In this document: positions 5,052 through 49,402 of the stretch, in pieces
How positions within the stretch are numbered: position 1 is the first letter of the stretch
How the letters are laid out: each line of letters opens with the position of its first letter
Made by a program: the position numbers and the translations under genes
NCBI GenBank assembly: GCA_949358305.1
Contig: OX442316.1
Location: 16,056,001 to 16,120,000, forward strand
Source: Strigamia acuminata
Taxonomy: Eukaryota > Arthropoda > Chilopoda > Geophilomorpha > Linotaeniidae
Reading direction: 5' to 3'
DNA: 64,000 nucleotides
The notes under the pieces: generated by a model
Seen by the model: only the letters and a program-made list of their open reading frames with translations
The model's database searches: none
What the model was told of the DNA's origin: nothing

Positions 5052-8000
5052 TTATAAAAGTGGTCTGGAAAGTCGTCGGCGCGTTCCCTGTTGGATTTGA
5101 AGGATTTCGTAGTACATGCCCCGCTTTTCGAACAACTCGTCCGGCGTGCCTTGTTCCACGATTTGTCCGTGGGAGAAGACGACGATTTTGTCCACGTTTT
5201 GAATGGTCGACAACCTGTGGGCTATTATGATGCATGTTCGACCTTCCTGCGCCTTTTCCAACGACTCTTGCACTATCTAGATGAAGAAAAACGTGAAAGA
5301 AAAATTGAAAATGAAAATTTGGACAAATTTAACCCTCCCCACCCCAACCTAGGGTCAATTTTGACCTCCAAAAATGTTTTTATTTTTTTTCTCCAAAACT
5401 ATTGGGATTTTCATTCTGAAATTTCATGTATTTTCATTTGTCATCATAACAACCAATAAAAAAAATAATAGATTTAAAAATCGCATAAAAAATTTTTCAT
5501 AAAAATCCTTTGTTTACTCACTACTTTTGAATGCAATGTCAATTATTTTTGTCGCTCTCTTTTGATAAATACCGAATTGATTAAATTTCTTCAGAAACAT
5601 GAAATCCTCAGAGAATAAAATCATTTTCACTCATTTTTGGAAAAATTTTTTCGGCTTGGGATCAAAAATGACCCGGGTTGGGTGAGTAAGGGATTTTTTT
5701 TAGGTTAGGGCTGCGAGGGTTAAAAACTTTACCTTTTCGCTCTCGTTGTCCAGCGCGGAAGTTGCTTCGTCCAATAGCAATATTTTTGGATTTTTGATCA
5801 GAGCACGAGCAATGGCCACTCTCTGTTTTTGACCACCGCTTAATTGCACACCTCGAGCACCAACTCGAGTTTCATATCCCTGTTTTTTAATAATAATAAT
5901 CAGTAAAAAAAATAAATGAATAAATGCATTGTAGTACTTGTCGCAAACTCGTTATGAATTCGTGTATGTTGGCCTTCTGGGCTGCGTCTATTATTTCGTG
6001 CATGCACACTTTTCGGTCGTTGTTACCGTAGGAAATATTCTCCGCAATGGTCCGGTTGAAGAGGATTGGTTCTTGGGATACAAGACCGATGAGGGAGCGC
6101 AGGGAAGGCACATTGATGCACCGAATGTCGTATCCATTTAATGCCTAGGAGTGGGAATAAGTCATTTAGATGGGTAAATATAAAATAAATACAGTCGAAA
6201 CTCTTTATAACGAATCGCAAGGGACCGGACAAATCGATTCGGTATAACGAGAATTCGTTAAAACGAATTAGCTGAAAAAAAATAAAATTTTATCATAAAC
6301 AACATTATTTATTCATAAAATCATGTTAATTTTATCCCGATTCTTAAAAACTGTTGAAATTGTAAAACGGGACAAATTAAACTCAACTGCTACAATTGAT
6401 AGCTTCTTGCCATTGTTAATGTTCAACTTGTCCTAAATCAAAATTTATTTTCATTTGGCAGCCATTTTAAAACAGAAAATTTTTTATTTTTTCTAAATGT
6501 GTTCCTAACATGGGCATAGGATGTTGTGAGTCATGTGATCAGTTTTGAAAATTCGTTATAACGAGGGCTTGTTGGTATTACAGTGTACTTGAAAACTTGT
6601 TTGTTATAACGAATAATTCGTTATATTGAAATTTGTTATAACGAAAATATTTAACATGGTGTTCTATGGCTGGCCAACCAAGTCATTCTTAACAATTCGT
6701 TATATCGATAATTCGTTATATCGCGATTCGTTATAAAGAGTTTCGACTGTACAGAATTGGGTGTAAATGAATTTTGTTTTGGTACTGTACCACTCCGCCT
6801 GATGTGGGGTCGTAAAATCTCTGAAGTAACTGCATCGAAGTGGATTTGCCGCAACCACTTGTACCCACAAATGCTACCGTTTGTCCGTCTTCGATCACCA
6901 GGTTAATGTTTTTGAGGATTTGGTCGGTGGTTCGTGTTGGGTAGGAGAAACATACGTCACGGAATTCGATTTTCGGTTGGAATTTGGCGGGCTGTTTAAA
7001 AATACATTGAAAAAGTTATTATTAATTTTGTTTTATATACTGTTACTGGATTTGGGATTACCATTTGAAGTCCTGCTTCTTTGGAATTGTCAATTAGTGG
7101 TTTTCTTTTCAGTAATTTCAGTATTTTATTTGCTGACACACAAGCTTTAGTGTAGCTCGGTGTTGCAGATAAAACGTGGGAAACTTCCATCAAATTTACA
7201 ATTAACATGGAATTAATCCTGAAAAAACATCATGAAATTTAAAACAAAAATGTTAAGTGGTTGATAGCAGGCAAATTCTACACACGTGTTAAATGTTGAA
7301 TAATCGGCTTGTCCTCGGTACATGAGGTAGGCGCCGTATGCTAGAGATACAGTGAAACCGAATATGGGTAAAGCGTCAGATGCTGCAACAGCTAAAGATC
7401 TTAACTGAGCTTCTTTGTTGAATACTCTGTAACAATTACAACCATCTTCAATTTTAAAGTGAAAATAATAGTGATTTTAATGACATTAATGGTGCTCCTA
7501 ACTACAAACAATTAATCAAATCATAGGCCTTTTGATCTAATGATCATCTTCAATGGTCTTGACCACCAAGATAAGCTGCGTAGCGACAAATCGTCTAGGC
7601 GCGCCAAAATCCGTCTTAAGCTATACTCAAAACCACCACAACGTTGACCTATTCCAGCCGGTTTACGCCTAACTGTGGAAAAGTAGTTCTGTTTATTTTC
7701 AATGAGTTTAAGTGTAAAAAGAGATTAGAATGATGAGTTTTATTTAAGTGATAATAAAATGTTTATTTATTTTCCTAAATCTGCTGTTTTGTTTATTTTT
7801 ATTCTATCAAAAATGTTATGAACTACTTTTTTTGTGCCACTACACCAGTGATACAGCTCGAACAATAGGTCAACGTTGTGGTGGTATTGAGTATAGGTTC
7901 ACACTTTTGTTCACAATAGACGCAATGCAAGAAAACTGACGTAATGCAAGCTGCTTGCGTCCAAAAATTCTTGACGTTGACGCCAATTCCTGCTTCAAAT

Positions 8001-11000
8001 CCAAGTGCATATTATATGCGCATATAACAAAATTTATTTTGCATATATATCCGAGGTCTACTTATTACATACCCACATACAGGGGTCGCGTAAAGATTTT
8101 TCAAGTGCAAAGGGGTTGCGGGTGGAAAAAGTTTCAGAAGCCCTGGACTAGAAATTGAACACCTACAGTCTTGGTTGGCCCAAAGAATCGTTGTAGAGGG
8201 TACAAATTTTGTCTTGGATGTGCAACGCTACCACAGTGCGAAAGTTACGGACGGCTTCAATGGCCATCTGAAATTTGCAAGAGAAATTAGAAAGGATGTC
8301 AATTAAAGACTGGATTGTTTGTTTACATTGTTGGCATGGTCTTCAGGAGTCATTAAATTGAGCAGCATTCCATGATCAATTTTACCTTTCAAATACTGAC
8401 AGGCAAATACTAGCAGTGATAAACAACTAACGGCTAATGCCAGTCTCCACTGTAATAAGTAGCTAAGGGTTGTCAGCACTGCAACGGCTACTGTTGCATA
8501 AAGCCAGGTTCCTAACATGGCACCTGGGATCTAAGTTTATTGTTAAAAAGTAAATAAAACATTTGTGGTCTGGAAAAGTTACTTTTTTGACGTTTTCGGC
8601 ATCGATGGTAACCATAGCGCACAAGTTGCCAACATTGTTTGATGGTTCGTCAAACCAACCGACTTCCTGTTGCAAAATGGCTCCCAGAAGGCGACGTCGG
8701 ATGCGAAAGAGCAGATTTTCTTCAGCTAAAGTCTGTGCCCACAGTTTTAAAGCGACTACGACGAAAGCTAAAAATCCGATAAGGACATATATTGACGGCC
8801 AAAAGACGACGATGTAACTATTGTTTTGGAGTGTTCGAACGACCACAGTCTGTTAAAAGAAAAAGGACAGACCAATTGATAAAATGTTATACAAGTCCAG
8901 GCTTAATACTGCTAAATATCAACTGGAATTAGGAAATCATTTTGCAGAAATGGATGCGCAGTGTGAATTTGGCAACAAGTTACCAGGCGCAAAGTAGTTT
9001 TAGCGAGGAAGCACTTACATTAGTGAGTTGTCCAAATACATAAGCTCTTGCAGGATGGGATAGTGAGTATAGTGTGGAGAAAATGAGGACAGTTGCTACT
9101 ATCATTTTGTCACTTTTACTGAAAGCAAGCATCCTCCAAAATGAGCGGCGTAGTTCTTTGTTTGTTCGTATCTGCAATAAATAAAAATGGCAAAACATTA
9201 GAGATGAAAGAATACCACCAGTAATTCTTAAATCCTGATACATAAACTCTCAGTCGATACAACGTTGTCCTATTTCCAGCCGTATCACTGGTGTAGTGGC
9301 ACAAAAAAGTAGCTCAAAACACCAGAACTGTAATCGAACTCCAGACATTGTGATCGATTACCAATACTTGTTTCATTGTCAAAGGTGATGCTTTGACATA
9401 GAAATACTTTTCCGTGTAGTAGAGCACAGTCCACAGTTAGGCGTAATATAGCTGGAATTAGATCAACGTTGTACGATTCAGAGTATGCTAGCGAGCAAAA
9501 GAACAAAGCTTAAAGCTATAACCGGCAAGCCGTCTTTTTATTTGCTATCTATCAAGAGCAAACTTGTGAGTAAGTTTAATTACTGTTCCGTCTTCATCCT
9601 CTTGTAAGCCCTCATAAGGGAAGAGAAAATCATCCACATCATCATCTTCTTCTAAATTGGAGTCTATTGACTGTTGTTCTGATTCTTCTTCTTCTTCATC
9701 TCCTTCGCAAGCTTTTGAAATGAATAACAGAACATATTTAGGTATGGCAGCAAGATCACTTTTTGGGACAAAGTGGTAGTAGAATTTTTTACAGTTGTTG
9801 GGTTTAGTAACTTACATTCAACAGTCTTCTCTTGTCCAGATTGAGTTTGAAGCAATTGGTAGTACACTCCTTCCTTGTCCATTAACTCTTCGTGAGTTCC
9901 TTGTTCGACAACTCGACCGGCTTTAACGGCAACTATTCGGTCAACGTAACGGATTGTGCTTAAACGATGAGCAATGATTATCACAGTTCTTCCGTCTCTG
10001 GCCTTATCTAAAGACTCCTGGACAATGACTTCGCTTTCATTGTCCAAGGCAGAAGTGGCTTCATCCAAGAGCAGAATGGATGGATTTCTGAGGAGTGCAC
10101 GGGCAATTGCTATACGTTGTCTTTGGCCTCCGCTTAACAGGGAGCCTTGTTCGCCCACCACTGTGTCGTATTGCTGGAAACATCACGCTAAGTTCTGGTT
10201 ACTCAAACCATCAATATTTGACTTACTTGCGGTAGCTTAAGAATAAAGTCATGGGCATTAGCTTCTTTGGCAGCAAAAATTATATCTTCCTCGGTTGCTT
10301 TTTGGTTTCCATATTTGATGTTTTCTCTGATGGTTGTGTTGAACAAACTTGGCTCTTGGCTCACAACTCCAACATTCTTTCTAAACCATCCAATATTGAA
10401 TTCAGTCAGTGGAGTTCCATCTACTTTGACCTGTAAAAATCACCAAAGACTAATAGAAACACACCAACAATTTCTCTGCTGTAATTGTTGCTAGTTATAC
10501 TCTAAACTGATACAACGTTGACCTAACTCCAGCCGTATCACTGGTGTAGTGGCACAAAAAAGTAGCCCATAACACCAGAATTGTGATCGAACTCCAGACA
10601 TTGTGATCGATTACCAACACTTGTTTCATTGTCAAAGTAAACAGAACTACTTTTCCGCATAGTAGAGCGCAGTCCACAGTTAGACGTAATCCGGCTCAAC
10701 CAATTGGAAATAGGTCAACGTTGTATGGTTCAGAGTATAGTAATAGCGACAATTAGTGAAAGGTTGTTAAGACTAAACATTCTTCTTCAATAACATAGTT
10801 AAACTTTATGACTAAAGGCTAGTTCACATGGATGCGTTGACGCATGCGTTATCGCACCAAAGCTGCTTCGTCACATGCGTTGCATGTGGACTGGTATGCA
10901 GCGCCAACGCGCGTTGACTGAAGCACGTTATGATTTCGTACGTCATATCGCACAACGCACGAGTTGACAATTTTCAACTTCAACGCAGCGATGAACTTTA

Positions 11001-19400: not shown

Positions 19401-22400
19401 TGTACGATAGAGATTCTGATGCTATCTGATGAATACAATGCTTATTTTGGTTGTGGCCATGTGATTATGAAGTATTACTGACTTTTCCAGCTGCTTCTTT
19501 GGCGCTGTACTGCAATGCTGAGTCTGCTGCATTCACTTTAGCTTGTAAGCAGGCTATGAATACAACTAAAATGGCAAACAACGACGCTACGAGAGCGGTT
19601 TTCCACGAATAGATGACGGTTATGAGTGCTGCTGCTGCTGTCATGGTACTAATCTGCACAAGTTTACCCAAGGCTGCTGTCAACATCTAAATATAATTTA
19701 ATTATCACAATTGGGGTATGACAATTGGAAATTTAGATGTGAAAGATTTGGAATCTTTTTGGGATTTAGAAGGGTCTGATTGCGGAGGTTCAGAAGATAC
19801 AGAAGGGATTCAGAGGATACAAGATGAACCAAAAGGATTTAATAATATTCAGAAGGACTTAGAAAGATTCAGAAGGATTTTAGAAAGATTCAGAAGGATT
19901 TAATAATATTTAGAAGGATTTAGAAAGATTCAGAAGGATTTAATAATATTCAGAAGGATTTAGGAAAATTCAGAAGGATTTAGGAAGATTCAGAAGGATT
20001 TATGAAGATTCAGAAGGATTTATGAAGATTCAGAAGGATTTAGAAAGATTCAGAAGGATTTAGAAAGATTCAGAAGGATTTAGGAAGATTCAGAAGGATT
20101 TAGAAAGATTCAGAAGGATTTAGGAAGAGTCTTAAGGATTTAGAAAGATTCAGAAGGATTTAGGAAGAGTCTTAAGGATTTAGGAAGGTTCTCACTAACG
20201 GAACCACAGACCTCCTTTATTAGAAATGGATCTTTGTGCAATCGGACTGATAATAACTTAGGATTATTCAAAGGATCGTCGAACCAATTCATCTCTTGAT
20301 GCATTATCGAAGTGAACATTTGTTTTCGCAAACAATTTGCCACTCGCTCGCCATAGTATGTGAAGAAACTGTTCTGTAATTGTGGAAAGTTTGAATTATT
20401 ATCGTAATGACCACCAAGTCCTCTTTGATCTGTACTTGTAAGAATGCAAAAAATCCTCCGAAGAATCCAACTACTACAGTCACAATCGAGTAATGTTTGG
20501 ACAAACTTGTGATTTTGTCAACATCTTGTGCTAGAAGCTTTGTGCAAGCAGAAGAAAAGTTTTATTGCTTTGTTTTTACCAGTGTTGTGTTCTTTGTCAA
20601 TCAACTTACACCGAGGTAATGACCCAACACGACTGTGAAGACAACGAACAGAAGTCCACCAGCAAATGCTCCCAGAAGTCCCATTGCAGCGAAGAAGAAA
20701 TACGGACTACTTGTGTGTAACAATCGAAGTAGTGTAGGGGTCACACGAAATTCACTAGCATCCATCTTGGAGAATCAAGAAAACTAAATGAATCGTTAAC
20801 CCTTCCAACCCTAAGACGGGTCTTTTTGTGACACCATTTGTAAAAAATCATTATTTTTATGTGAAATCGTAAAAAGCGTCATATACCCAATTGGTGTGCT
20901 TGCTTATTCGAATCCTAGAAACAGGATACAGTCGACCTCTATCACTATCTGTTTGCGCTGCTGCTCCATCTGCTGCTTCTTCTTTAATTGGTTTCTCTAT
21001 TTCGTCGTCATCTTCGAGCCATTCTTTGCAATTTGAAAATATTCTCTTGAGTTTTGTCTTCATTGCAAATGATAATTACCTACCGGGGACTTCGGGTTTG
21101 TCGTTTTTAATCTGTTGTTTGGTAATTATAGAATATTTTTAATTTTTGTGCACTGAGGAAATGGTTAAAGTGTGAGTACCTCATCTTTGAATTGTTGGTA
21201 ATAAACTCCCTTTTGTTGCATCAAACTTGCATGATTGCCAAGCTCAACGACCTTGCCGTCACTTAGTACTACAATATGCTCAATGTGCGTTATGGAAGAT
21301 ATTCTGTGGGGTACTAGGAAGGTGGTACGACTTTCCCTGGCTTTTTCCAAGGCTTCTAACACAATGGAATCAGGGTCTGAATCCAACTTGGCAGTTGCTC
21401 CATCTAGAAGGAGGATCTTTGGGTTTCTGATGAGTGCTCTGGCTATTGCGACTCTCTGCTTTTGACTGTCCGTCAGAATGGTGCCGTGTTCGCCAACTAT
21501 TGTATCGTATTGCTGAAAATAATTGCTGTTAAGTGTATTTTTATTGTGGTTTTTCGGTGCAAATGCAAGGTTGTCCACACAGTTAAAAAATATTGGAAAA
21601 ATTGGAATTGTATTGAAACGTATTTTGAAATGCATTGGGTTTTGCGAGATTGCATTTGGTTCGACTACTAGATTTGCATCAGGCTAATGGCCTAGGACAG
21701 GGGTCGGCAACCTGCGGCTCTTTCGATGTCAGAGAACGGTGAGAATAGGTGGAATAGAGAGTGGACGGATAGCTGACGGCCGTGTTAGTGGCTCTTTAAT
21801 TGTAACTTTTGGCTCTTCCGTCTCAAAAGGTTGCCGACCCCTGGCCTAGGACTGTCAACTTAAAAGGAATAAAGTTTATTATTTCTCACCTGGGGTAATT
21901 TGGTGATAAATTCGTGGGCATTTGCGGCTAAAGCCGCCGACTCGATATCGGCAACGGTAGCACTTTGTCGGCCGTATCGAATGTTTTCTCGGATTGTGGT
22001 TGAGAAAAGGATGGGTTGGGAGTCCACGAAAGCCACTTGCTCTCGCAACCAAGCCACATTGATGTCACGTATGTTGTGCCCTTCAAGGCTTATCTTGAAA
22101 ACAAACCCAAAATTGAGCTAAACTCTTGCAAACATGGATTCAAAGTTGATGTGTCAGCCATACTTGACCACTAGTTGGGTCATAAAATCGTTGTAGCAAC
22201 TGCAAAACCGTTGTTTTGCCTCCTCTAGATGGACCTACAATGGCCACTGTATCTCCAGCTTGCACTTGTAAACTGAAGTTTATCAGCACCTGAACGATTA
22301 ATGGAGTTAATACATATTTAAGGAAGATGTTGTGGGATACTTGCCTCTATTTCCGGTTCTACGGGATATGTGAAACTCACATTTTCAAAGCTGATTGTTC

Positions 22401-32900: not shown

Positions 32901-34307
32901 CCATGTAAATGCTCCTCCTATAGTTAAAGACCAAAATGTGTGTCGGACTAATGGATCTGGATCAAAGCTAAGAATATATATATAAAATAATTTATTTTCA
33001 AAATGTGAATGATAATTTAGACCTACTTGAAAAATTCTAATCTTTTTCCTTGCTGGGCTCTTTGCCAAACCAGGTCAATTCCTCCCAGGTCAATACAACC
33101 CTTTATTACCACGGCTATCATGGAGCCAAACATGATGAACACTTGAAATGCGTCTGTCCACATCACGGCTTTCATCCCACCCTGGAAATATTTGATAAAG
33201 TGAATAGTTTTATCAAAAATGAAGGAGAAATTCCAAAAAAGTGAATAATTTCATTAAAATGATGGAGAAATTCAAAAAAGTGAATAATTCCTTCAAAATT
33301 GATAGAATAATTTTTAAAAAGTGATTAATTTCATCAAAAATGAATGAAGAATTCAAAAACAAATGAAAAATTCCAAAACAAATGAAAAATTCAATAACAA
33401 ATGAAAAATTCAATAACAAATGAAAAATTCAATAACAAATGAAAAATTCAATAACAAATGAAAAATTAAATAACAAATGAGAAGTTTCATTAAAATTTCA
33501 TTACCAAAGTCGTGTAAAAAGTGCAGACAAGTCCAATAGCGCATACGGAAGCCCACACATGTAAGCCGGTCACTATAAAAAAAAAGAAAACAAACATTTA
33601 AAAAAAGAAAAGCAGGACAGATGTATGATTTAGCCGTAATTGGTACCTTGACTCAAGGCCAAAGCTGGGGCATACAACACAATGGCCATGTAAATGGTCT
33701 GAATTGAGTAGAAAAAATAAATAAACAAACTTGAATGCTGTTCAATTCATCGCATACCATTTGAATGATGAACACGAATGATCCACATCTTCGAATTGTC
33801 CTGTTGAAACGACGCTCCAGGTACTAAACCAAATCCCCCCAAAAAATTAAAAAATTGAATGAATAATTCAAAAACTGAACAAAAAACACAAAAATTGGAT
33901 GAAAAATTAAAAAATTGAATGAAAAATGTAACAATTCCATCAAACCATACCTCGTAAGCACTCGTAATCCTCAATCGATAAAACACCGGTAAATAAAAAT
34001 AAGCCGCTATGGGCACGACGAACGAGTATCCAATTGCAATGAACCAATAGCTGGCATTGAAATTGTACATCTCCGCCGGCGTGCCGAGCAATGTCACTGC
34101 ACTCATGAACGACGCGAGAAGGGAAAGCGAGACCGGGAAAACACCCATGTTCCTGTCGGCCATGAGGAACTCGCTCGTCGTCCTTTGTTTACCGCCCGTG
34201 CACGCGTAAAACAGGCCGATGGTCGCCGACACGAGCAGCACGAGCGCGAACACGCCGTAGTCCCATAGTGTGAAGCGCTTGACCAGCTCGTCTTGAGTTA
34301 AAAGCAT
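29939..34307 (-). CDS. SLC5-type sodium-coupled (monocarboxylate-like) symporter, 647 aa
   Basis: Sodium/solute symporter, closest in appearance to the SLC5A6/A8/A12 branch. Exons: 33951-34307 (ATG), 33758-33823, 33647-33698, 33505-33572, 33027-33181, 32827-32967, 32121-32250, 31965-32053, 31787-31902, 31022-31089, 30813-30899, 30495-30745, 30338-30432, 30156-30268 and 29939-30094 (TAA). All are in frame. Family landmarks are [11 protein letters not shown] (TM1), [82 protein letters not shown] and [16 protein letters not shown] loop rich in N-glycosylation motifs ([11 protein letters not shown]) lies before the last TM. Its stop codon is 207 bp from the start of the next SLC5 gene downstream. 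Several T/A-rich tandem repeats and two MITEs lie in its introns. Confidence 0.92.
30952..31016. mobile_element. Short pogo-like remnant
   Basis: Copies of TTCGTTATAACGA between GAGCCTCGTTATAACG and CGTTATAATGAGGTTC give about 65 bp of inverted-repeat ends only. Intronic in the 647-aa SLC5 gene. Confidence 0.5.
31212..31517. mobile_element. GC-rich MITE with TTACCGTACCG ends
   Basis: Left TTACCGTACCGCTCCGTTTA and right TAAACGGGGCGGTACGGTAA are inverted repeats, followed inward by AACGCCCGGG. The interior repeats GCGCCGG every 15-25 bases and is much richer in G+C than its AT-rich surroundings. Intronic in the 647-aa SLC5 gene, 7 bp from the 191-bp MITE. Confidence 0.75.
31525..31715. mobile_element. 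191-bp MITE, copy 2 of an identical pair
   Basis: Base-for-base identical to 957-1147, including the perfect 40-bp inverted ends. It lies in an intron of the 647-aa SLC5 gene. Identity over the whole length indicates very recent movement or gene conversion. Confidence 0.92.
32260..32530. repeat. AT-rich tandem repeat (AATATTTTTTAGTGGAAAAA)
   Basis: Imperfect 30-40-bp copies expand the intron between SLC5 exons 32827-32967 and 32121-32250. No coding content seen. Confidence 0.75.
33205..33485. repeat. AT-rich tandem repeat (AATGAAAAATTCAATAACA)
   Basis: Two phases of a simple array. Near 33215-33350 it has longer units with GTGAATAATTTCATCAAAA. At 33355-33480 it has a unit of about 19 bp. 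It lies in the intron between SLC5 exons 33505-33572 and 33027-33181. Confidence 0.8.
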
Positions 34308-34853
34308 TTTGGATGGACGTTACTGTTTGTTAGGAAATCCGAGACATTTTTGGTGGTGCCTTGAGTGCGTGATCGAGATGCGTTGTGGCACCGGCACCTG
34401 ACAGGAACAAGTTGTTTACACCTGACTGACCCCGAACTGGGTTTGGAATATAGCTCTTGGCTATGCAGGTGAGAAAACTTTCTTTCTGCATCCGGTTTGG
34501 GCGAATTGGATTCCCCATTGTGGGGGGGAATGGTTTTTATTTTTGGGTTTTTGCAGTTGTTTGTTATTGGTATGTTTTATTGGTTATTGTTCTGGGATAT
34601 GGCCCATATCTCAGAACAATATAATATTTAATGGTTTTGATATTTGTGATGTAATGTGTTATGTGTTTATAGTGATTTATATATTTTTTATATTGTTAAT
34701 TGTTGGTTTGTTGTAAGGATTAATGGAGAATTTGTTATTTTTTGTTTTGGGAAAACCCAGGATTACAATATGACATAATAATTGTTCAATTGCCAAGGAC
34801 AGAGCAGTGAAGCCAAGTTACTTTAGGAGAAAAATATAGGACAATTGTTGAAG
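34308..34853. other. 5' flank of the 647-aa SLC5 gene
   Basis: Presumed promoter and leader region between the SLC5 start codon and the TTAA target of the large transposon. A 14-bp near-duplicated GTTCTGGGATATGG/ATATGGCCCATATCTCAGAAC inverted motif lies at 34590-34620. No gene recognised. Confidence 0.5.
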
Positions 34854-34857
34854 TTAA
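34854..34857. repeat. TTAA target-site duplication, left
   Basis: TTAA directly precedes the terminal GGGG of the transposon and matches TTAA at 41818-41821. Because TTAA is palindromic it could formally be counted as part of the inverted repeat. Confidence 0.85.
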
Positions 34858-34871
34858 GGGGCTAGCCTACC
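34858..34871 (+). repeat. Transposon left terminal inverted repeat
   Basis: GGGGCTAGCCTACC, the exact reverse complement of 41804-41817. The match stops after 14 bp. Confidence 0.9.
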
Positions 34872-35368
34872 CGCCATCTTGCCTGTTTTCTGATGCTACA
34901 AGGCGGTCTTAGTTTCGTCATAGCTAAATGACTATTGCATATTTTTTTTTTTTTTTTTTTTTCTAAATACTAATTAATAAACTGAATGTTTATATTATGT
35001 TACATTTGTGATATTTGTTCAATTTGTTTTTCAATCATTAAAATTAGAACATGATTTTAAAAAAAAAAATTTTATTTTTTTTAAAAATAGAAGTAATAGA
35101 AACCTAGATAAAACAATTTTATATGTTGCATTAATTTTTATTTATGAAAATTTTTGAAATTGTTACTGTAAACTTGAAATTACGAAGCAAATGTTTTAGA
35201 TGTGATTGTGCTGCCACCTATTAGTGAAGTGTACCGATACACTACTTTAGCATGCGTAGGAATATGATTTAGTCACGTGATTTTTTAGTCATGTGATTTT
35301 TCAGTCATATGATTTCACAGATCATTTTTTTTTCTTTTGATTCAATACGACCATTGCAATCATAAAAA

Positions 35369-38300
35369 ATGTCAAAAAGAAAAAGTACAAAAGCAAGAAT
35401 CTGGCAAAGTGCTCGGCGAAAGAAGAGGACCTGTAACCACTTAAAAAAGTTTTATGGCTTACCAAAAACTAAAAAGTAATTTATTTATTTGAAATTTTAT
35501 ATTATTTTAATTCTGGGTCATATTTTTGGATGTCGGGTCACTTTGGTGCCGATTATTTCGATGCCTAACCAAAAAAAACCCTAAATTTTCACCCAAATTT
35601 ATTGATGGATTACTTCGGCGCCATCATTTCATCGTCAATCTCTTCGTCGCCAATCATTGCTTTGGCAATCACTTCGTCACCGCTCATTTCTTTGGCAATC
35701 ACTTCGTCACCGCTCATTTCTTTGGCAATCACTACATTGACTGTCGGCCGTACGTTTTTGACTGTCGACCGTCAGCTTTCGACTGTCGGCCGTACGTTTT
35801 CGATGTCGGCCGTACGTTTTCGATGTCAGCCATACGTTTTCAACTGTTGGCCGACGACTGTCGGCCGTCAGCTGTCGCGGCATTTGTATATATATATTTT
35901 TTTTTATAAATTGTAATAAAAATCACGAAACAAAACATAAATTGCACAAATTGCAACACACACTCGGTGTATGGCAGCGATGGTCACGACAGCTGACTGC
36001 CGATTGGCGGGGAATTTGTTTGAGATTGGCGGGCCATACGTTTTCGACTGTTGGACGTCGACTGTCGACAGCTGTTTTTATGCACTTTTTGGCTAGTTTT
36101 CATGCGAGTTTTGGCCAGTTTTCATGCGACACGTTTTTCCGGCAAATTTTATAGGTGTTTGCAGGGGAATTTGAGGGGAATTTGTTTGAGATTGGCGGGG
36201 AATTTGTTGGAGATTGGCGGCAAATTTGACACGTTTTTGAGGGGAATTTGTTGGAGATTGGCGGCAAATTTGACACGTTTTTGAGGGAAATTTGTTTGAG
36301 ATTGGCGGGGAATTTGTTTGAGATTGGCGGCAAATTTGACACGTTTTTGCGCAAATTTGACACGTTTTTGAGGGGAATTTGTTTGAGATTGGCGGCAAAT
36401 TTGACACGTTTTTGAGGGAAATTTGTTTGAGATTGGCGGGGAATTTGTTTGAGATTGGCGGCAAATTTGACACGAATTTGCGGCCGTACGTTTTCGATGT
36501 TGGCCATACGTTTTCGACTGTTGGACGTCGACTGTCGGCAGTCAGCTGTCGCGGCCATCAGCTGTCTACTGTCGGCCGGTTTTCTACTAATTTCCGTAAA
36601 AAAAAATTGCAAATGCATTTGTATATTTATATTTATAAATTTTAATAAAAATCACCAAACAAAACACAAATTGCACAAATTGCAACACACACGCGTTGTA
36701 TGGCAGCGATGGTCACAACAGCTGTTTTCATGCGCTTTTTGGCCAATATTTATGCGATGTTTGACCACCAATTCTGGTGCGATTTTTGGGAATATTTTAT
36801 ACGATTTTTAGGCAAGACAGAAATAAAGATATAAAAATTTTGTCAAAGATTTTATTTGTTTTTGTACCAAATGTCATACGATTTTGGGCAAGATTTCTTC
36901 CAATTTTTGGCCATTTTTTATGCGTTTCGGGTCTGTTTTCAGGCGCTTTTTGGCCAGTTTCAAAGCGATTTTTGGCCAATATTTATGAGATGTTTGGCAA
37001 CAAATATGCTGTGAATATGCGGCAATAAGCCGTGAATTATTATTGGCAAGTAATCGTGTGATTTTGGGAATGATTTCAACCGATTTTGTACAAGATTTGT
37101 TGTGATTTTGTGCAAGATTTGTTGCGATTTTGGGTAGAATTTGTTGCGATTTTTGGCCAGATTATGTGCAATCTTGGGCCAGAGATTATGTGCCATCTTG
37201 GGCCAGTTTTGGTGCAATTTAGGCCAAGATTTGCTGCGATTTTGGGGAACTTCTTGCCCTTTATTGTTGGCAAGAAGTTGTACGATTATGGCAATGAAAT
37301 TAGCTGTTTTGTGCAAAATTTTGTTCGATTTTGGCCAATAATTTAAACTATTTTTGGTCAATGTTTCTGAGATTTTGGGGACACTTTTATACAATTTTGG
37401 ACCAGTTTTGGTTGAAATTTTGGGCCAGGTTAGGTGCGATTTTGGGTCGAATTTGGTACGATTTTGGGCCAGATTTGGTGCGATTTTATGCATTTGGACC
37501 AGTTTTGGTGGCAATTTTGGGCCAGATTAGGTGCGATTTTATGCAAGACAAATATAAAAATATAAAAACTTTAAAAATAATTGACCCAACATTAATTTGT
37601 ATTTTAAAAAAAAATTAATAGTGAATTCGAGGATCCTGAAAGCATTGAAATTGATGGGCAGTCAGAAATGGATTCAATGCTACTGTCACATTTGAGTTTT
37701 CAAAATGAGAATACTCCAATTGCAAATGAATGTGCTGTTGATCATGGAAGTGATCATTCATTTCAATTGCCAAATTCTACTGATGAATTTGACAGTGCAC
37801 ATCTTAAAATTGGAGAGTTATGTTCAACACCTAGGCCTGGTCGAAATCAAGGAGGTGACTCTCCTATAGAGATGAATACACCAATCAGTGATGAAGTTGC
37901 TGGTTCATACAGCCAAGAAAGTGAAAGGTATTCATACATCACAAAGTCAATTCTTTTACTGTGTTACAAAATTATTTTTTTTCAGTTACTTGGGTCGACG
38001 TATTGTTGACATAGGACATGTATTTTCTGCTATCAAAACCATATCAGATCACGATCCATTTGACTGCTCATTTAAAGATATGGACCTTGTCAATGAAAGC
38101 AGGGAAGGGCTGCATACAGTTTGGACATTTGTGTGCAAACTGTGTAATTTACGTAAGAAGATACGGAGTGAACCCATCGATGATGGGAAAATGAATTCGA
38201 ATGAATCTGCAGTTTCGGGAATATTAACAACAGGAGGTGGCTATTCCCAATTAGAAGAAGTCCTGACTGTGCTTGATGTGCCAGTTATGGCAAAACAAAC

Positions 38301-40488
38301 ATACAATAAGACTCAGGCAACTCTGGGAAATGTGTATCAGAAAGCAGCAATGGAAGAAATGATTTCAGCTGGGAAAGAAGAAGCAGAACTTGCTACTGCA
38401 AGCAGTGATTTGGACACTGATGGAATTCCACTGATAACTGTGATTGCTGATGGTTCTTGGGCAACTCGTTCTTACGGAACGAAATACAACTCTTCATCTG
38501 GCGTGGTAACAATCGGAAATTTATTTTTTATACTTTTTTTAAAATTTCTTAATTTTTGCACATTTCAGGCAATAATAATGGGTGCCAGAACTAAAAAAAT
38601 TCTGTTTGCTGCAATAAGGAATAAGTACTGCTCGACTTGTACCTTTTATGACACAAAGCAAGAAACTACACCTGAACATCGATGTTACAAAAACTGGACA
38701 GGTAGTTCTGGTGGGATGGAAGCCGATGGAATTGTTGAAGGCTTTCAACGAAGTTTGGAAATGCATGGCGTCAGATTCGCTCGGCTTATCGGAGATGGAG
38801 ATAGTAGTGTCTACAAAAGACTTTTGGATGCAATGCCGTACGGACATGCTTTGATCATTGAAAAAATAGAATGTCGAAATCACATTCTGCGAAACTATTG
38901 TAATAAGATCAGAGATATTGCAGGCAACACCAAGCTGGGAACACCAGCACTACGACGAATTATTAGTGGACAAGTACTCCGTCTTAGAACTGCTGTGCAA
39001 AAAGCAGTTCAGTATCGAAAGCAACAAAATGAATTAACACTTTCTGAAAGAACACAATTACTGAAGAAGGATGTTAAAAATGGCCCGTATCACGTGTTTG
39101 GTGACCACACTAACTGTGCTAATTATTTTTGCTCTGGGCCAAAAGAAAGTGAAACAAACCTCGTACAGCAATTGTCAGCAACAGGACTTTTTTCAGAGAT
39201 GCTAAAAGTAGTGGAAAGAGTGCATAATAATGCTTTTAGCTTAATCCACGATGTGACTAACAATATAGTGGAAAATGCGAATTCAGTAATAGCAAAGTTT
39301 ATAGGAGGAAAACGAGTTAACTTCAGTCGTGGGCACTCATACCAAAGTCGTTGTGAAGCTGCTGTAGTTTCAATCAACTCCAACAACAACCTACACGGCA
39401 GAGTTCATGAAGTGATGTTTAACCGCAGTCCTAGGAAATTCACTGCTTCATTTATTAGCAGACGTCAAGATAAAAAAAACTATAACATTGAAGCACGAAA
39501 GGCTGCTGCTCTGAAACCACGAAAGAAAACTTCAAACATTCTACCAATGGGAGATGCAGATTATGGAAAGAATGCCCAACAACCTGACATGGACACCACA
39601 ATCTATGAAGAGGAAAAAAAGAAGATACTGAAAAGTTTACAAGTCTCTTTAGATCAGAGGAACGACATAGAAAAGATAACTGTTGGTCAAGCCATGTCAC
39701 CTGTTTGGCTGCAGGAACGACAACGAAGATTGACAGCCTCAGTGTACGGAAAAATCTGTAAAATGAGGCCTTCAACTTCATGCAAAACCAATGTTCATAC
39801 CATTTTATATTCTGCTGTAAAAACTCAGGGCATGCGTTATGGAAATGACAGTGAGCCATTTGCTATAGCAAAGTTTGAACAAGTGTATGGGTTGAAAACA
39901 ATTGCATGTGGGCTATTTGTGGATCTGGAGAAGGGATACTTGGGAGCCAGTCCTGATGCCATAATTGGAACAGATGCAATTGTTGAAGTGAAGTGCCCAT
40001 CATGTGCGAAGAATTTGACACCTTTGCAGGCAGTTGAGGGAAAAAAAATCACTTACTGCTCAATTCAAAACGGCAAGCTATTCCTAAAACCGACCCATGA
40101 GTATTATTACCAAATTCAGGGACAGCTGCACATTACTAGAAAATTAAAGTGTTATTTTGTTTTATGGACACCTTTGGGAATGTCAGTTGAAGAAATTGTA
40201 AGAGATGACGCATTTTGGGAAAACAACATGAAGGAACAATTGGACAAATTTTATTTAAACTGTTTGTTGCCCGAAATTGTGGACCCCAGGCATACAAGGA
40301 ATATGCCGATACGAGACCCTGACTATATTCTAAATGCTCAAACCAAACAGAAAGAAAATAAAAATATTGCATTACAAAAGAAAAGAAATCAAGACGAAAT
40401 AATTGATGAGCAAACAGAAGAAAACAATCACCAAACAACGGGTAATGAAAATATACAGCCAAAGCAAGATAGGAAACGCAAAAAGTAA
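35369..40488 (+). CDS. Transposase: Mutator-like DDE domain fused to YqaJ-type nuclease, 950 aa
   Basis: Spliced gene with exons 35369-35475, 37622-37927, 37986-38505 and 38569-40488. All introns are GT-AG and phases match (2, 2, 0). The last intron is 63 bp without a stop, so the ORF also reads through it. Exon 1 encodes a very basic start (MSKRKSTKARIW, ARRKKR). The transposase core has D293 (IADGSW), a C332-x2-C335...H348/C350 cluster, D387/D389 (IGDGDSS), C413-x2-H416 (ECRNH) and E546 (NIVENANS), then IAKFIGGKRVNFSRG, typical of the animal Mutator-like domain. The C-terminal third (about 690-880) is a YqaJ/lambda-exonuclease fold: RRLTAS, E740, SPD774, E784-x-K786 and QIQGQ. A lysine/arginine-rich tail ends the protein. 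The nuclease may process ends or the donor break; that role is inference. Starts at 37668 or 37888 would lose exon 1 and are less likely. Confidence 0.88.
35640..35885. repeat. Tandem repeats in transposase intron 1, left part
   Basis: Two and a half copies of a 30-bp unit (CTTTGGCAATCACTTCGTCA) are followed by about six copies of GTCGGCCGTACGTTTTCGA-type units. The same GGCCGTACGTTTTCGA words recur at 36015-36060 and 36480-36570. Confidence 0.8.
36165..36475. repeat. 22/44-bp array in transposase intron 1
   Basis: Copies of GGGAATTTGTTTGAGATTGG alternate with GGCGGCAAATTTGACACG, giving a 44-bp higher-order period. The open frames across it (both strands) are by-products of the repeat. Confidence 0.85.
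36890..37555. repeat. Left member of the inverted tandem-array pair
   Basis: Diverged roughly 20-22-bp units such as GATTTTGGGCCAGATTTGGT, plus a GGCAAGAAGTTG motif at about 37270. It is the inverted counterpart of the array downstream of the transposase gene, which carries CAACTTCTTGCC at about 40692. Confidence 0.7.
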
Positions 40489-40524
40489 AAATTGTAAAAA
40501 TATCTAATAAAGTAATGGAAATTC

Positions 40525-40650
40525 ATAAATATTTTGAATAAATTCATTTCAAATTGTAAATATTTTGAATAAATTCATTTCAAATTGGAAATATTTTGAA
40601 TAAATTTATTTCAAATTGTAAATATTTTGAATAAATTCATTTCAAATTGT
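40525..40650. repeat. 31-bp tandem repeat after the transposase stop codon
   Basis: About four copies of a 31-bp unit containing AAATATTTTGAATAAATTCA. The AATAAA words here could serve as polyadenylation signals for the transposase transcript. Confidence 0.85.
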
Positions 40651-40779
40651 AAATGTATCGAATAAACTCACGTGAAATCATATAAATTATCACAACTTCT
40701 TGCCAATAAGAATGGGCAAGAAGTTTCCCAAAAGTCGCAACAAATCGTTTCAAAATTGTACATAATCTGACCCAAATTT

Positions 40780-41485
40780 GCATCAAATCACGGCAAATTC
40801 ACGGCAAATTCACGGCAAATTCGCCGCAAATTCGCCCCAAATTTGCCACAAATTCACGGCAAATACGTCCCAAACTTGCCGCAAATTCGCCCCAAACTTG
40901 CCGCAAATTCGCCCCAAACTTGCCGCAAATTCGCCCCAAATTCGTCGCAAATTCGCCCCAAATTCGCCGCAAATTTGCCACAAATTCACGGCAAATTCGC
41001 TCCAAACTTGCCGCAAATTGGCCCCAAACTTGCCGCAAATTGGCCCCAAACTTGCCGCAAATTCGCCCCAAATTCGTCGCAAATTCGCCGCAAATTTGCC
41101 ACAAATTCACGGCAAATACGTCCCAAACTTGCCGCAAATTCGCCCCAAACTTGCCGCAAATTCGCCCCAAACTTGCCGCAAATTCGCCCCAAACTTGCCG
41201 CAAATTCGCCGCAAATTCGCCGCAAATTCGCCGCAAATTTGCAGCAAATTCGCCCCAAACTTGCCGCAAATGCGCCCCAAATTCATCGCAAATTTGCCAC
41301 AAATTCGCCCCAAATACGTCCCAAACTTGCCGCAAATTCGTCCCAAATTCGCCGCAAATTCAAAGTAAACTTGCCCTAAATTCACAGCAAATATTCCGCA
41401 AATTCACAGCAAATTTTCCGCAAATTCACGATAAATTTGCCAGAAAATCACGGCAAATACACAGCAAAGTTGTGCAAATTCACGA
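40780..41485. repeat. 11/22-bp satellite array, right member of the inverted pair
   Basis: Units GCAAATTCGCC and CCAAACTTGCC (11 bp) alternate to give 22-bp repeats with occasional CACAAATTCACGG variants. Eleven is not a multiple of three and the unit has no stop, so long open frames appear on both strands. I do not regard these as genes. Confidence 0.92.
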
Positions 41486-41803
41486 CTATTTGCCAATAAT
41501 AATTGTAATTAACCTTTGAAAAAATCAAAATTATTACATTAAATTTTTTTTATTAAAATCTATTTTTTTTTATCACAACTGAAAAATCAAAATTCTGGCC
41601 AAAAGTTTATTCTGAATAGCATTTATTTATTTTTTAAATAAAAAACACTTGACCCCTTTAATACCCACAACCCCTTTTAATTCCAAGAAAGGATTAAGTT
41701 GGAACCCCTTTTATGCACTACTTTCTAGTGTGTGATAATATTGTAGGTGATTTGGTTTTAGTAATCAGCGCCATCTATTGACCAAAACATGTCAAAATAA
41801 TAA

Positions 41804-41817
41804 GGTAGGCTAGCCCC
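41804..41817 (-). repeat. Transposon right terminal inverted repeat
   Basis: GGTAGGCTAGCCCC, the exact inverted copy of 34858-34871, followed by TTAA at 41818-41821. Confidence 0.9.
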
Positions 41818-41821
41818 TTAA

Positions 41822-46500: not shown

Positions 46501-48699
46501 TGTGTAAGTTTTGTTGTAGGAGTTTTAAGTTTACTTGGTCGGCCTTTGTGATGCGTTTTGTCGAGAGGGGATCGCAGTTCCAGTAATTGGCGTAAATGAC
46601 GAATCCAGCTAGGCAGCAAACAAACAGTAAAACTTGTAGGCCCACAAGATTCCACCAAAGTGCCCTAAAATGAATATTTTAAATGAATATTTTAATCAGT
46701 CCGAATCTGGAGTTTGCCTGATTTCATTTACATTTGAGCAATTTTAATCGTTGGTGTCGAAAGGTAGCGTTGAACTTGAATTTGGTTGATACCGTACAAA
46801 CTTAACCACATTAAGGTCCCACCGAAGACGAAGCCCCAAACCGTATGTCGAACTGTAGGATCCGGGTTGAAACTTGAAAAACAAAACATGAAAAACAAAA
46901 CATTTAAATTTAAAACGTAAAATGTAATTTATTTTTGTCTACTCGAATAGTTGCAATCTGTCTCCTTCGAGTGCTCTTTGCCAAACCACGTGGATTCCTC
47001 CTACGTCCATGGAGCCTTTAATTATGACAGCAACCATGGCCCCAAACATGATTAATATTTGAAACGCGTTTGTCCACATGACTGCTTTCATTCCTCCCTA
47101 GAGGTGAGTGGTTAGAACTAGTAAATAGGCCAGTTATTTTCATTTTGAATTGAAAATTACAAATGTTGTGTAGAACGTGCAGACAATCCCAATTGCAGCC
47201 ACTGATGTCCAAACGTGTAAACCAGTTACTGAAGAAAATCGAACAAGTTGTTAAATTAGGGTTAAGGATGAGAGGAAATAATGAGGTACAGTACCTTGAC
47301 TCAGGGCCAGAGCAGGAGCATACATTACAATGGCGACATAAGTTGTCTGTTTGGGTTAAAAAAAATTGTAATTATTGTGTAATTTGTTTATGAAATGTTA
47401 ACGGAGGCCATTCAAGGTTTCTGTATTTCTTTCAACAGAATGGTCACCAAATTGTCGAACCGGTTGAAGCTGTTATCGAAGTGGTTTTTGCCTGGTTTTG
47501 GTTTCAAAATGGCTGCCGTAAAAGTGAGATAAGTGGGTCGAACTTGCAGGCGAAGCATCAAACACCAACAAGTAACGTGAGGGGTTGCAAATAGAAAAAG
47601 TTTAACATGTAACCAAATTTGTGTTAGAGGCAGAACTTCTTAACACTAGAATGGCCGAAAATACGTACACGATACTTGTCTTAAATAAAGGAAAAAATTG
47701 ATACATACCTGTTATGTCGTATCATTAAAAAAAGACACAAATTTCCGTTTTTTTCCGGAAAAAAGGCAATTTATGCATTTATTTACCGATTTTCGCGAAA
47801 TATGCAATTTAAGCCAATTTCAGCTTTTTATTCAATATAAATATATTCTATGCATTTATGCATTTATTCGGGGTCTAGTTATAGCAAGTTTGTTGTATCA
47901 AATTTATTAACATGATGTTCAATGGCTAACCAAACCATTTTTAAGTATCCATTATAAGAAAGAAAAATTTATATTCATTTTGTTACACAAGGTTCGACTG
48001 TATATCGGTAGGTAGTATACCCGGGGTCGCGTAAGGAAAAAGTTTAAGAAGCCCTGGTTTATAGAAGCAGCGATAAACCTCAACAGAAACTTTGAATGCA
48101 TTTAAAGATAAACTGATACCATTTGAATGATGAATATCATGGATGCGCATCTCCGGATTGCTTTGTTGAATCGGCGTTCCAGATACTGAAAGAATGCAAA
48201 CGGTAATTAAACCCCCACACACAAAACATTTTAACTGTCTGATTTTTTAGACAATTGGGAGGATGCACTTGCAATGACTGCATCACGTGGAGGCACACAT
48301 TTACAGATTAGAAACACCCAACATTGCACTCTTAATCTTTACCTCGTGCGCACTCGTGAGTCTGAGCCGATAGAAGACGGGCAAATAGCAATAGGCCGTG
48401 ATCGGGATTAAGAGGCAGAACGCGATGCTGACAAGTCCATAACTGGCGTTGTTGACGTACATCTCGGCTGGGGTGCCGAGTAACGTGATTGCACTCACGA
48501 ACGATGCGATCAACGAAAGCGAGACGGGGAAAGCGCCCATGCTTCTGTTGCCCATTAAAAATTCATTTGTGGTTTTTTGCTTGCCCCCAGTGCACGCGTG
48601 GTACATCCCGATGGCCGCCGATATAAACAACATGATCCCGAATACGCTGTAATCCCATGGTGTGAAGTGTTTGACCAATTCTTGGTCGCTTAATTCCAT
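43565..48699 (-). CDS. SLC5-type sodium-coupled symporter, 599 aa (tandem copy A)
   Basis: Sodium/monocarboxylate-type symporter. There are 15 exons: 48343-48699, 48120-48185, 47295-47346, 47161-47228, 46943-47097, 46732-46872, 46535-46664, 45719-45807, 45550-45662, 45415-45482, 45278-45364, 45031-45212, 44878-44972, 44701-44813 and 43565-43648. All are in frame. Landmarks are [109 protein letters not shown] and a Cys-rich [11 protein letters not shown] segment before the tail. I chose the ATG at 48699 ([12 protein letters not shown]) because the duplicate gene starts there. An in-frame ATG at 48861 would add 54 residues. Every exon length equals that of the gene at 49403-54680. The last intron holds two MITEs. 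Confidence 0.93.
43681..43909. mobile_element. MITE, TAGGTGCGTTCAAT family (copy 1)
   Basis: Ends TAGGTGCGTTCAATTCTAAA and TTTAGAATTGAATGCACCTA form an inverted repeat. The interior has ACGGTTTT/AAAACCG motifs. It lies in the last intron of the 599-aa copy A gene. Similar single ends occur at 13601, 17311 and 45934. Confidence 0.75.
44162..44491. mobile_element. MITE, AGGTGCATTCAAT family (copy 2)
   Basis: Left CAGGTGCATTCAATCTTTAA and right TTGAAGATTGAACGCACCTA are inverted. It is a diverged relative of the preceding element, in the same intron. Confidence 0.65.
45960..46400. repeat. Diverged relative of the GAACTAGTTC hAT-like element
   Basis: Contains GTTCACGTTCAC-type repeats, the ATCATCAAAACGTTT core shared with 18370-18400, and a TTCGATTCAACACTGC end resembling GATACAACACTG. 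The left end is not clear. Intronic. Confidence 0.4.
47640..48003. mobile_element. Degraded pogo-like element
   Basis: Shares about 75 bp (ATATAAATATATTCTATGCA and neighbours) with 13278-13526, and ends near GGTTCGACTGTA. It lies in intron 2 of the 599-aa copy A gene. Confidence 0.5.
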
Positions 48700-49402
48700 G
48701 TTGCGAGAAACAAAGTCTTTGGGAGTTGAAGTGTGTGCAGCTGCGACTGTGTATTGTGTAGCCAAATTGAAACTAGTGTTTATGAATGAATGGGGTATTG
48801 TTGTGTTGGTGTGGTTGTTGATAAGAAAGAACAAAGCCAAATAAATCTCCAATATCCGCATTACTGCAGCGCCATTGTCTGAGTGAATTTAGTACTAGCC
48901 ATTGGTGTGTGCACATCAAGGTCGCTTGTATTTGCAATGGCGGGTTTGCACGCCTAAATCACTTGTGGAGGGTTGGGTTGAGTACAAAGACGATCACGTT
49001 GCAACATGTTGGCAGATGTTTGATTAAAATCTTTACTATTCATTAGGTGCATTTAGTTTTGTAACTAAAAGCACCTTTTGTTATTTTTTTCTTTGGTTTC
49101 TTTTGTTTGCGTTATGTACAGTCATGGACAAAAGAACTTCTCTTCAGTTTAGCTATTTTTAAGACTTATCTATTGTAGTTGCATTTCTTTAATAAATTGT
49201 ATAATTTTTTTACAACTGCGCAACAAAAACACTCTAATTTTATGATGTTTTATTAAGAACCTCCAATTTACGACCAAAACACAGTAATTTGGTGATGATT
49301 TTTCATAAAAACCTCCACTTTGCGACCAAAAGAGTGAAAGAAATGTGCCATTGAGAAATGTTGGTTTATTTATTTTACAAATTATATTATTTTTAAATTT
49401 TA
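48700..49402. other. Intergenic between the tandem SLC5 duplicates
   Basis: Promoter region of copy A and 3' flank of copy B. No gene or paired repeats seen. The text just downstream of both stop codons (GTGAAAGAAATGTGCMATTGAG) is shared between the two duplicates. Confidence 0.5.

Follow-up and report, generated by a model that had tools for sequence, protein, structure and literature searches.

An intact, recently mobile transposon assigned to the KolobokE lineage in the centipede Strigamia acuminata

Kolobok DNA transposons are described as generating TTAA target duplications and as having RR...YY termini (Kojima and Bao 2022, PMC9587614). According to the passages of that paper used here, a C/DxxH motif is common to Kolobok, MuDR, P, hAT, and Dada; a zinc finger between C/DxxH and the catalytic E is present in almost all Kolobok elements except Kolobok1, and not in MuDR, P, or hAT; a second finger, of the CCHC type, follows the first catalytic D in the lineages KolobokE, P, D, and 5; and in KolobokE the transposase is additionally followed by a lambda-exonuclease-like PD-D/ExK nuclease. 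We analyzed a 6,960-bp element at positions 34858-41817 of a 64,000-nt stretch of the Strigamia acuminata genome (hereafter, the window; C4:16056001-16120000), searching a host genome of 237.5 Mb in 157 contigs. With high confidence, and by the published description rather than by Repbase sequences, we assign it to the KolobokE type of the Kolobok superfamily as an autonomous cut-and-paste DNA transposon. The pairing of a transposase with a lambda-exonuclease-like nuclease has already been described as KolobokE; the element is a recently mobile example and not a new kind. In the literature searched, KolobokE was named in PMC9587614 only, and PF20700, the Pfam model matched by the transposase domain, was not mentioned.

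Ends, predicted gene, and assignment

The gene model joins four exons across GT-AG introns into 950 amino acids without internal stops, and the element comprises the following features.

34854..34857, no strand: left copy of the TTAA target site duplication (4-bp duplication, from the empty sites of another copy)
34858..34871, + strand: left 14-bp terminal inverted repeat (TIR), which starts with GG (motif match, genome-wide ends)
35369..35475, + strand: exon 1, with a Lys/Arg-rich N-terminus (gene model; the N-terminus of homologue P0022 is similar by eye)
35476..37621, + strand: inferred intron 1, with tandem repeats including 21-, 22-, and 30-bp periods (gene model, repeat analysis)
37622..37927, + strand: exon 2 (gene model)
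37986..38505, + strand: exon 3, with the first part of the transposase domain (PF20700) and catalytic D293 (gene model, alignment, Pfam)
38569..40488, + strand: exon 4, with the CCHC finger (C332, C335, H348, C350), D387/D389, CxxH (C413xxH416), the second finger (H486, H491, C494, C499), E546, and the YqaJ/lambda-exonuclease-like nuclease (E740, D774, E784, K786) (gene model, alignment, Pfam)
41804..41817, - strand: right 14-bp TIR (motif match, genome-wide ends)
41818..41821, no strand: right copy of the TTAA target site duplication (sequence and empty sites)

The two TIRs are identical at 14/14 positions, as are the arms at 18/18 when TTAA is counted, and the element begins and ends as GGGG...CCCC, with 5'-RR and YY-3' termini. 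Allowing up to two mismatches, the end motif matched twice in the window against 0.07 expected; the doubt raised by one of 100 shuffled windows, which also reached two matches, is removed because both window matches are exact and by the genome-wide count of ends. Genome-wide, TTAA plus the 14-mer gave 42 exact matches and its reversed control 0, which rules out ends by chance, and the 14-mer alone gave 43, so that TTAA adjoins 42 of 43 exact ends; the remaining end, without TTAA, belongs to a deleted copy at C4:18079412. Ends with one mismatch (nine rows) were regarded as chance and left uncounted because 20 matches came from the reversed control when up to one mismatch was allowed. The perfect inverted ends and flanking TTAA reported in a preliminary description of this DNA are thus present in the window and recur across the genome.

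The copy at C1:50616283 sits in a dispersed repeat, and its flanks, joined with a single TTAA, match paralogous empty loci at 204/204 positions, ungapped, in all six loci read. TTAA is therefore a 4-bp target site duplication. All 41 matches listed for the joined query of eight flank pairs fell on this one junction, and since 40 of 1,980 candidates were scored, we draw no inference for the other seven pairs. The flanks of the window insertion yielded no empty paralogue among the 80 matches listed, two of which were the flanks themselves, with the rest lying within right-flank query positions 402-504; the paralogous empty sites suggested in the preliminary description were hence found for the C1:50616283 copy and not, among the matches listed, for the window copy.

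Within the predicted gene, the placement of intron 3 has good support, since relatives align without a break once it is taken out, whereas intron 2, at the margin of the conserved part, is less firmly supported; predicted intron 1 is the weakest part of the model because the frame stays open with either of two acceptors. Homologues number 279, and among the 120 listed, on which our domain figures are based, all (120/120) contain both the transposase and the nuclease, at 37-50% identity. We examined residue conservation in alignments A1 (15 homologues and the window protein, 16 rows) and A2 (55 homologues), which have 11 homologues in common. In A1, D293, D387/D389, C413xxH416, and E546 are identical in 16/16 rows; H486, H491, and C494 are kept in 16/16 and C499 in 15/16; and C332, C335, and H348 are kept in 16/16 and C350 in 15/16. 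In A2, the nuclease metal-site residues are identical in 55/55 relatives, with gaps at D1 in five rows and at the first two CCHC cysteines in three and two rows. The nuclease domain matches PF09588 and PDB 3syy (E 0.00013), and the C-terminal domain fold of the relative P0001 matches lambda exonuclease/LHK-Exo (PDB 1avq, 6m9k, 3syy). The transposase fold matches ISCth4, an IS256-type transposase. Our Pfam search, which reported E up to 10 with filters that remove most matches above 0.1, returned no transposase model other than PF20700 and no THAP domain in the 950-aa protein. An open, three-intron gene model that fuses a transposase to a YqaJ-type nuclease, with every expected DDE and nuclease residue in place and conserved among aligned relatives, is consistent with what the preliminary description proposed. 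Among viral contigs, five pattern matches to P0001 included no true relative. One KolobokE-like homologue, P0106 from Osmia lignaria, has ~250 additional C-terminal residues that are Ulp1-protease-like by eye, without an Ulp1-protease match in Pfam at E up to 10.

We place the element in KolobokE because it combines the 4-bp TTAA duplication and GG...CC termini with a DDD/E triad containing CxxH between the second D and E, a zinc finger between CxxH and E, a CCHC finger after the first D, and a PD-D/ExK nuclease downstream (PF09588, 3syy, and the P0001 fold). The preliminary description had held that this combination fits no standard superfamily, mentioning Kolobok only as another TTAA group; its puzzle arose from the label "Mutator-like", which is simply the name of PF20700 and no evidence of a Mutator element. 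The features match the KolobokE lineage as given in the passages of PMC9587614.

Two rival classifications were weighed against this assignment. A Mutator (MULE/MuDR) element that had switched to TTAA targets would account for the name of the Pfam model and for the ISCth4 fold. However, MULE/MuDR target duplications are 8-11 bp, whereas that of the element is 4 bp; its TIRs are short; the filtered Pfam search at E up to 10 matched no other transposase model; and the finger between CxxH and E has no counterpart in MuDR, P, or hAT (PMC9587614, passages used here). We therefore regard a Mutator origin as very improbable. A piggyBac-like element, from the other TTAA superfamily, would explain the duplication, but the same passages give GG...CC termini as a stated difference from piggyBac, membership of which requires termini other than RR...YY; moreover, the Pfam matches include no piggyBac model, and the CxxH motif and zinc fingers are Kolobok-like, which makes this classification scarcely credible.

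Copies, age, and movement

Copy counts rest on exact TTAA+14-mer or 14-mer ends. By coordinates, nine pairs of ends have full-length spacing, spanning 6,936 to 6,980 bp when both TTAA are counted, and the other pairs comprise four of ~2 kb, one of 3.76 kb, and one of 11.8 kb; twelve further ends with the exact TTAA+14-mer lack a partner that bears it too. The element matched over >100 bp in 28 of 30 loci examined (exceptions, L004 and L027). Homology beyond the ends, a possibility raised in the preliminary description, extended past the TIR only in L015, which is flanked by a further arm of this family. By eye, the 30-bp outer flanks are unlike between sites (that of L005 contains N), except for L008/L009 and L010/L011, a single site pair with common flanks.

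The ~2-kb copies form a nonautonomous group with identical 14-bp ends (C1:53600919, C1:53668445, and C4:13110124, corresponding to L008-L011 and L020-L021, and C8:10773987 by coordinates only). Their partial matches to the element are at ~82-92%, for which reason the group would be older than the full-length copies. C1:53600919 and C1:53668445 look like one duplicated region because their flanks are common to both. At C4:15125298-15137059 (L022, L023), the ends are 11.8 kb apart, ~4.8 kb beyond full length, and this copy probably holds a nested insertion.

Four of the nine full copies, the window copy included, were read through. All four frames are open, and one substitution and three changes in repeat length separate the three other copies from the window. 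The substitution lies at 38266, where the window has A and the other copies have G, and makes codon 232 Thr or Ala; the length changes are a poly-T run that varies by 1 bp, a difference of one 11-bp unit, and, in one copy, a 44-bp repeat deletion. The insect mutation rate is near 3e-9 per site per generation, and one difference in ~6.9 kb at this rate would put the age of the copies at some ten thousand generations, to an order of magnitude. Comparison of the copies confirms that the element is young, and, with intact ends, an open gene model, and a TTAA target duplication, it is complete as had been proposed.

Movement is also recorded in defective copies. Those at C1:60024977 and C4:18079412 have lost the same internal segment (window 37037-40257), which holds most of the coding region, and are identical over 3,753 bp, while their flanks differ and the C4:18079412 copy is missing TTAA on one side. 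An element lacking a working gene must therefore have moved or been copied; the simplest route is in trans, with protein supplied by an intact copy. At C3:21035692-21035869 (L014), a left end is joined to TTAA at ~6805 within a right arm of the family that lies in inverted orientation, and ~7 kb past this junction (L066) the element stops near position 6800, where a 12-bp outer-flank repeat, TCAAAACTTTAA, follows. Judged from these two junctions, the structure is an apparent self-insertion scar, in which one end would have used TTAA in the element's own right arm and the other side would have been untidily repaired. Near-identical intact copies, measured ends, the TTAA duplication, and a moved derivative together make this a likely working KolobokE system.

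Fused nuclease, subterminal arrays, and neighbors

The RNase H-like DDE domain of the 950-aa protein would bind and cut the 14-bp ends, which would then be joined to TTAA with a 4-bp stagger, leaving one TTAA on each side of the insertion; the duplication is observed, whereas the joining chemistry is suggested by DDE relatives, and it is likewise inferred that this protein is the catalyst and that the route is cut-and-paste. Conservation of the nuclease residues among relatives, together with fusion of the domain to the transposase, makes it probable that the nuclease acts at the transposon. As its most likely role, though tentatively, it may trim 5' strands at the excision gap, favoring repair of the donor site from a homologous copy, by which copy number would rise. 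Alternatively, within KolobokE, the nuclease might not steer donor repair at all, acting in trans on competing DNA or host repair, or removing the non-transferred strand to aid excision. The metal-site identity across A2 would fit this alternative in that the residues are kept for something, but the one-chain fusion in every listed relative points to action at the transposon, and we consider the alternative somewhat unlikely.

A further repeat lies downstream of the gene.

40793..41427, + strand: tandem array of ~58 copies of an 11-bp unit, consensus GCAAATTCGCC (repeat analysis)

Every unit within 40793-41270 has CAAA at a fixed phase, with the remaining positions varying. Bending is common in DNA whose A-tracts recur at close to the helical period, and the CAAA phasing resembles that of intrinsically curved DNA. 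The 22-bp-period repeats of intron 1 (36100-37560) are partly complementary to the 11-bp array (longest pair, 71% over 80 nt). The two arrays, a minor peculiarity of the element, lie in opposite orientation to either side of the main coding exons. Near 2701, another signal of 11-bp period proved to be an artefact of a run of N. More speculatively, the element could be a copy-up transposon, in which the exonuclease resects the donor gap, a sister copy provides the template for repair after every jump, and the A-tract arrays serve as curved-DNA organizers that pair the ends; we hold this to be improbable.

Elsewhere in the window, two similar exons, at 33747-34319 (- strand) and 48301-48888 (- strand), look by eye like paralogous SLC5-type sodium-coupled transporters, and the element lies ~0.55 kb upstream of the apparent start codon of the gene with the first of these. 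Segments resembling ABC-transporter nucleotide-binding domains by eye occur at 9664-10182 (- strand) and 21165-21683 (- strand), with the motif present in the first and altered in the second.

Comparison with described systems

Lambda exonuclease and LHK-Exo are phage-type recombination proteins without a transposase; the C-terminal fold, seen in P0001 (PDB 1avq, 6m9k, 3syy), and the D...E-x-K residues are alike. Xenopus Kolobok (XKol), as presented in the parts of PMC6004289 used here, resembles the element in its TTAA duplication, purine-purine ends, DDE domain, and H2CH-type putative zinc finger. Its transposases, however, usually have a THAP domain, for which Pfam gave no match at E up to 10 in the element, whose protein instead carries a fused nuclease; THAP is absent from the features given in the PMC9587614 passages. 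Those passages ascribe to KolobokP and KolobokD a CCHC finger after the first D, as in the element, whereas the accessory role in these lineages falls to a His-Me finger nuclease or a DnaQ-type exonuclease, and KolobokP has long terminal direct repeats, unlike the element. The value of the locus is more practical than conceptual, as a system for testing the role of a transposase-fused exonuclease. With KolobokE itself, as described in the same passages and at the level of description rather than of family sequences, we found no differences.
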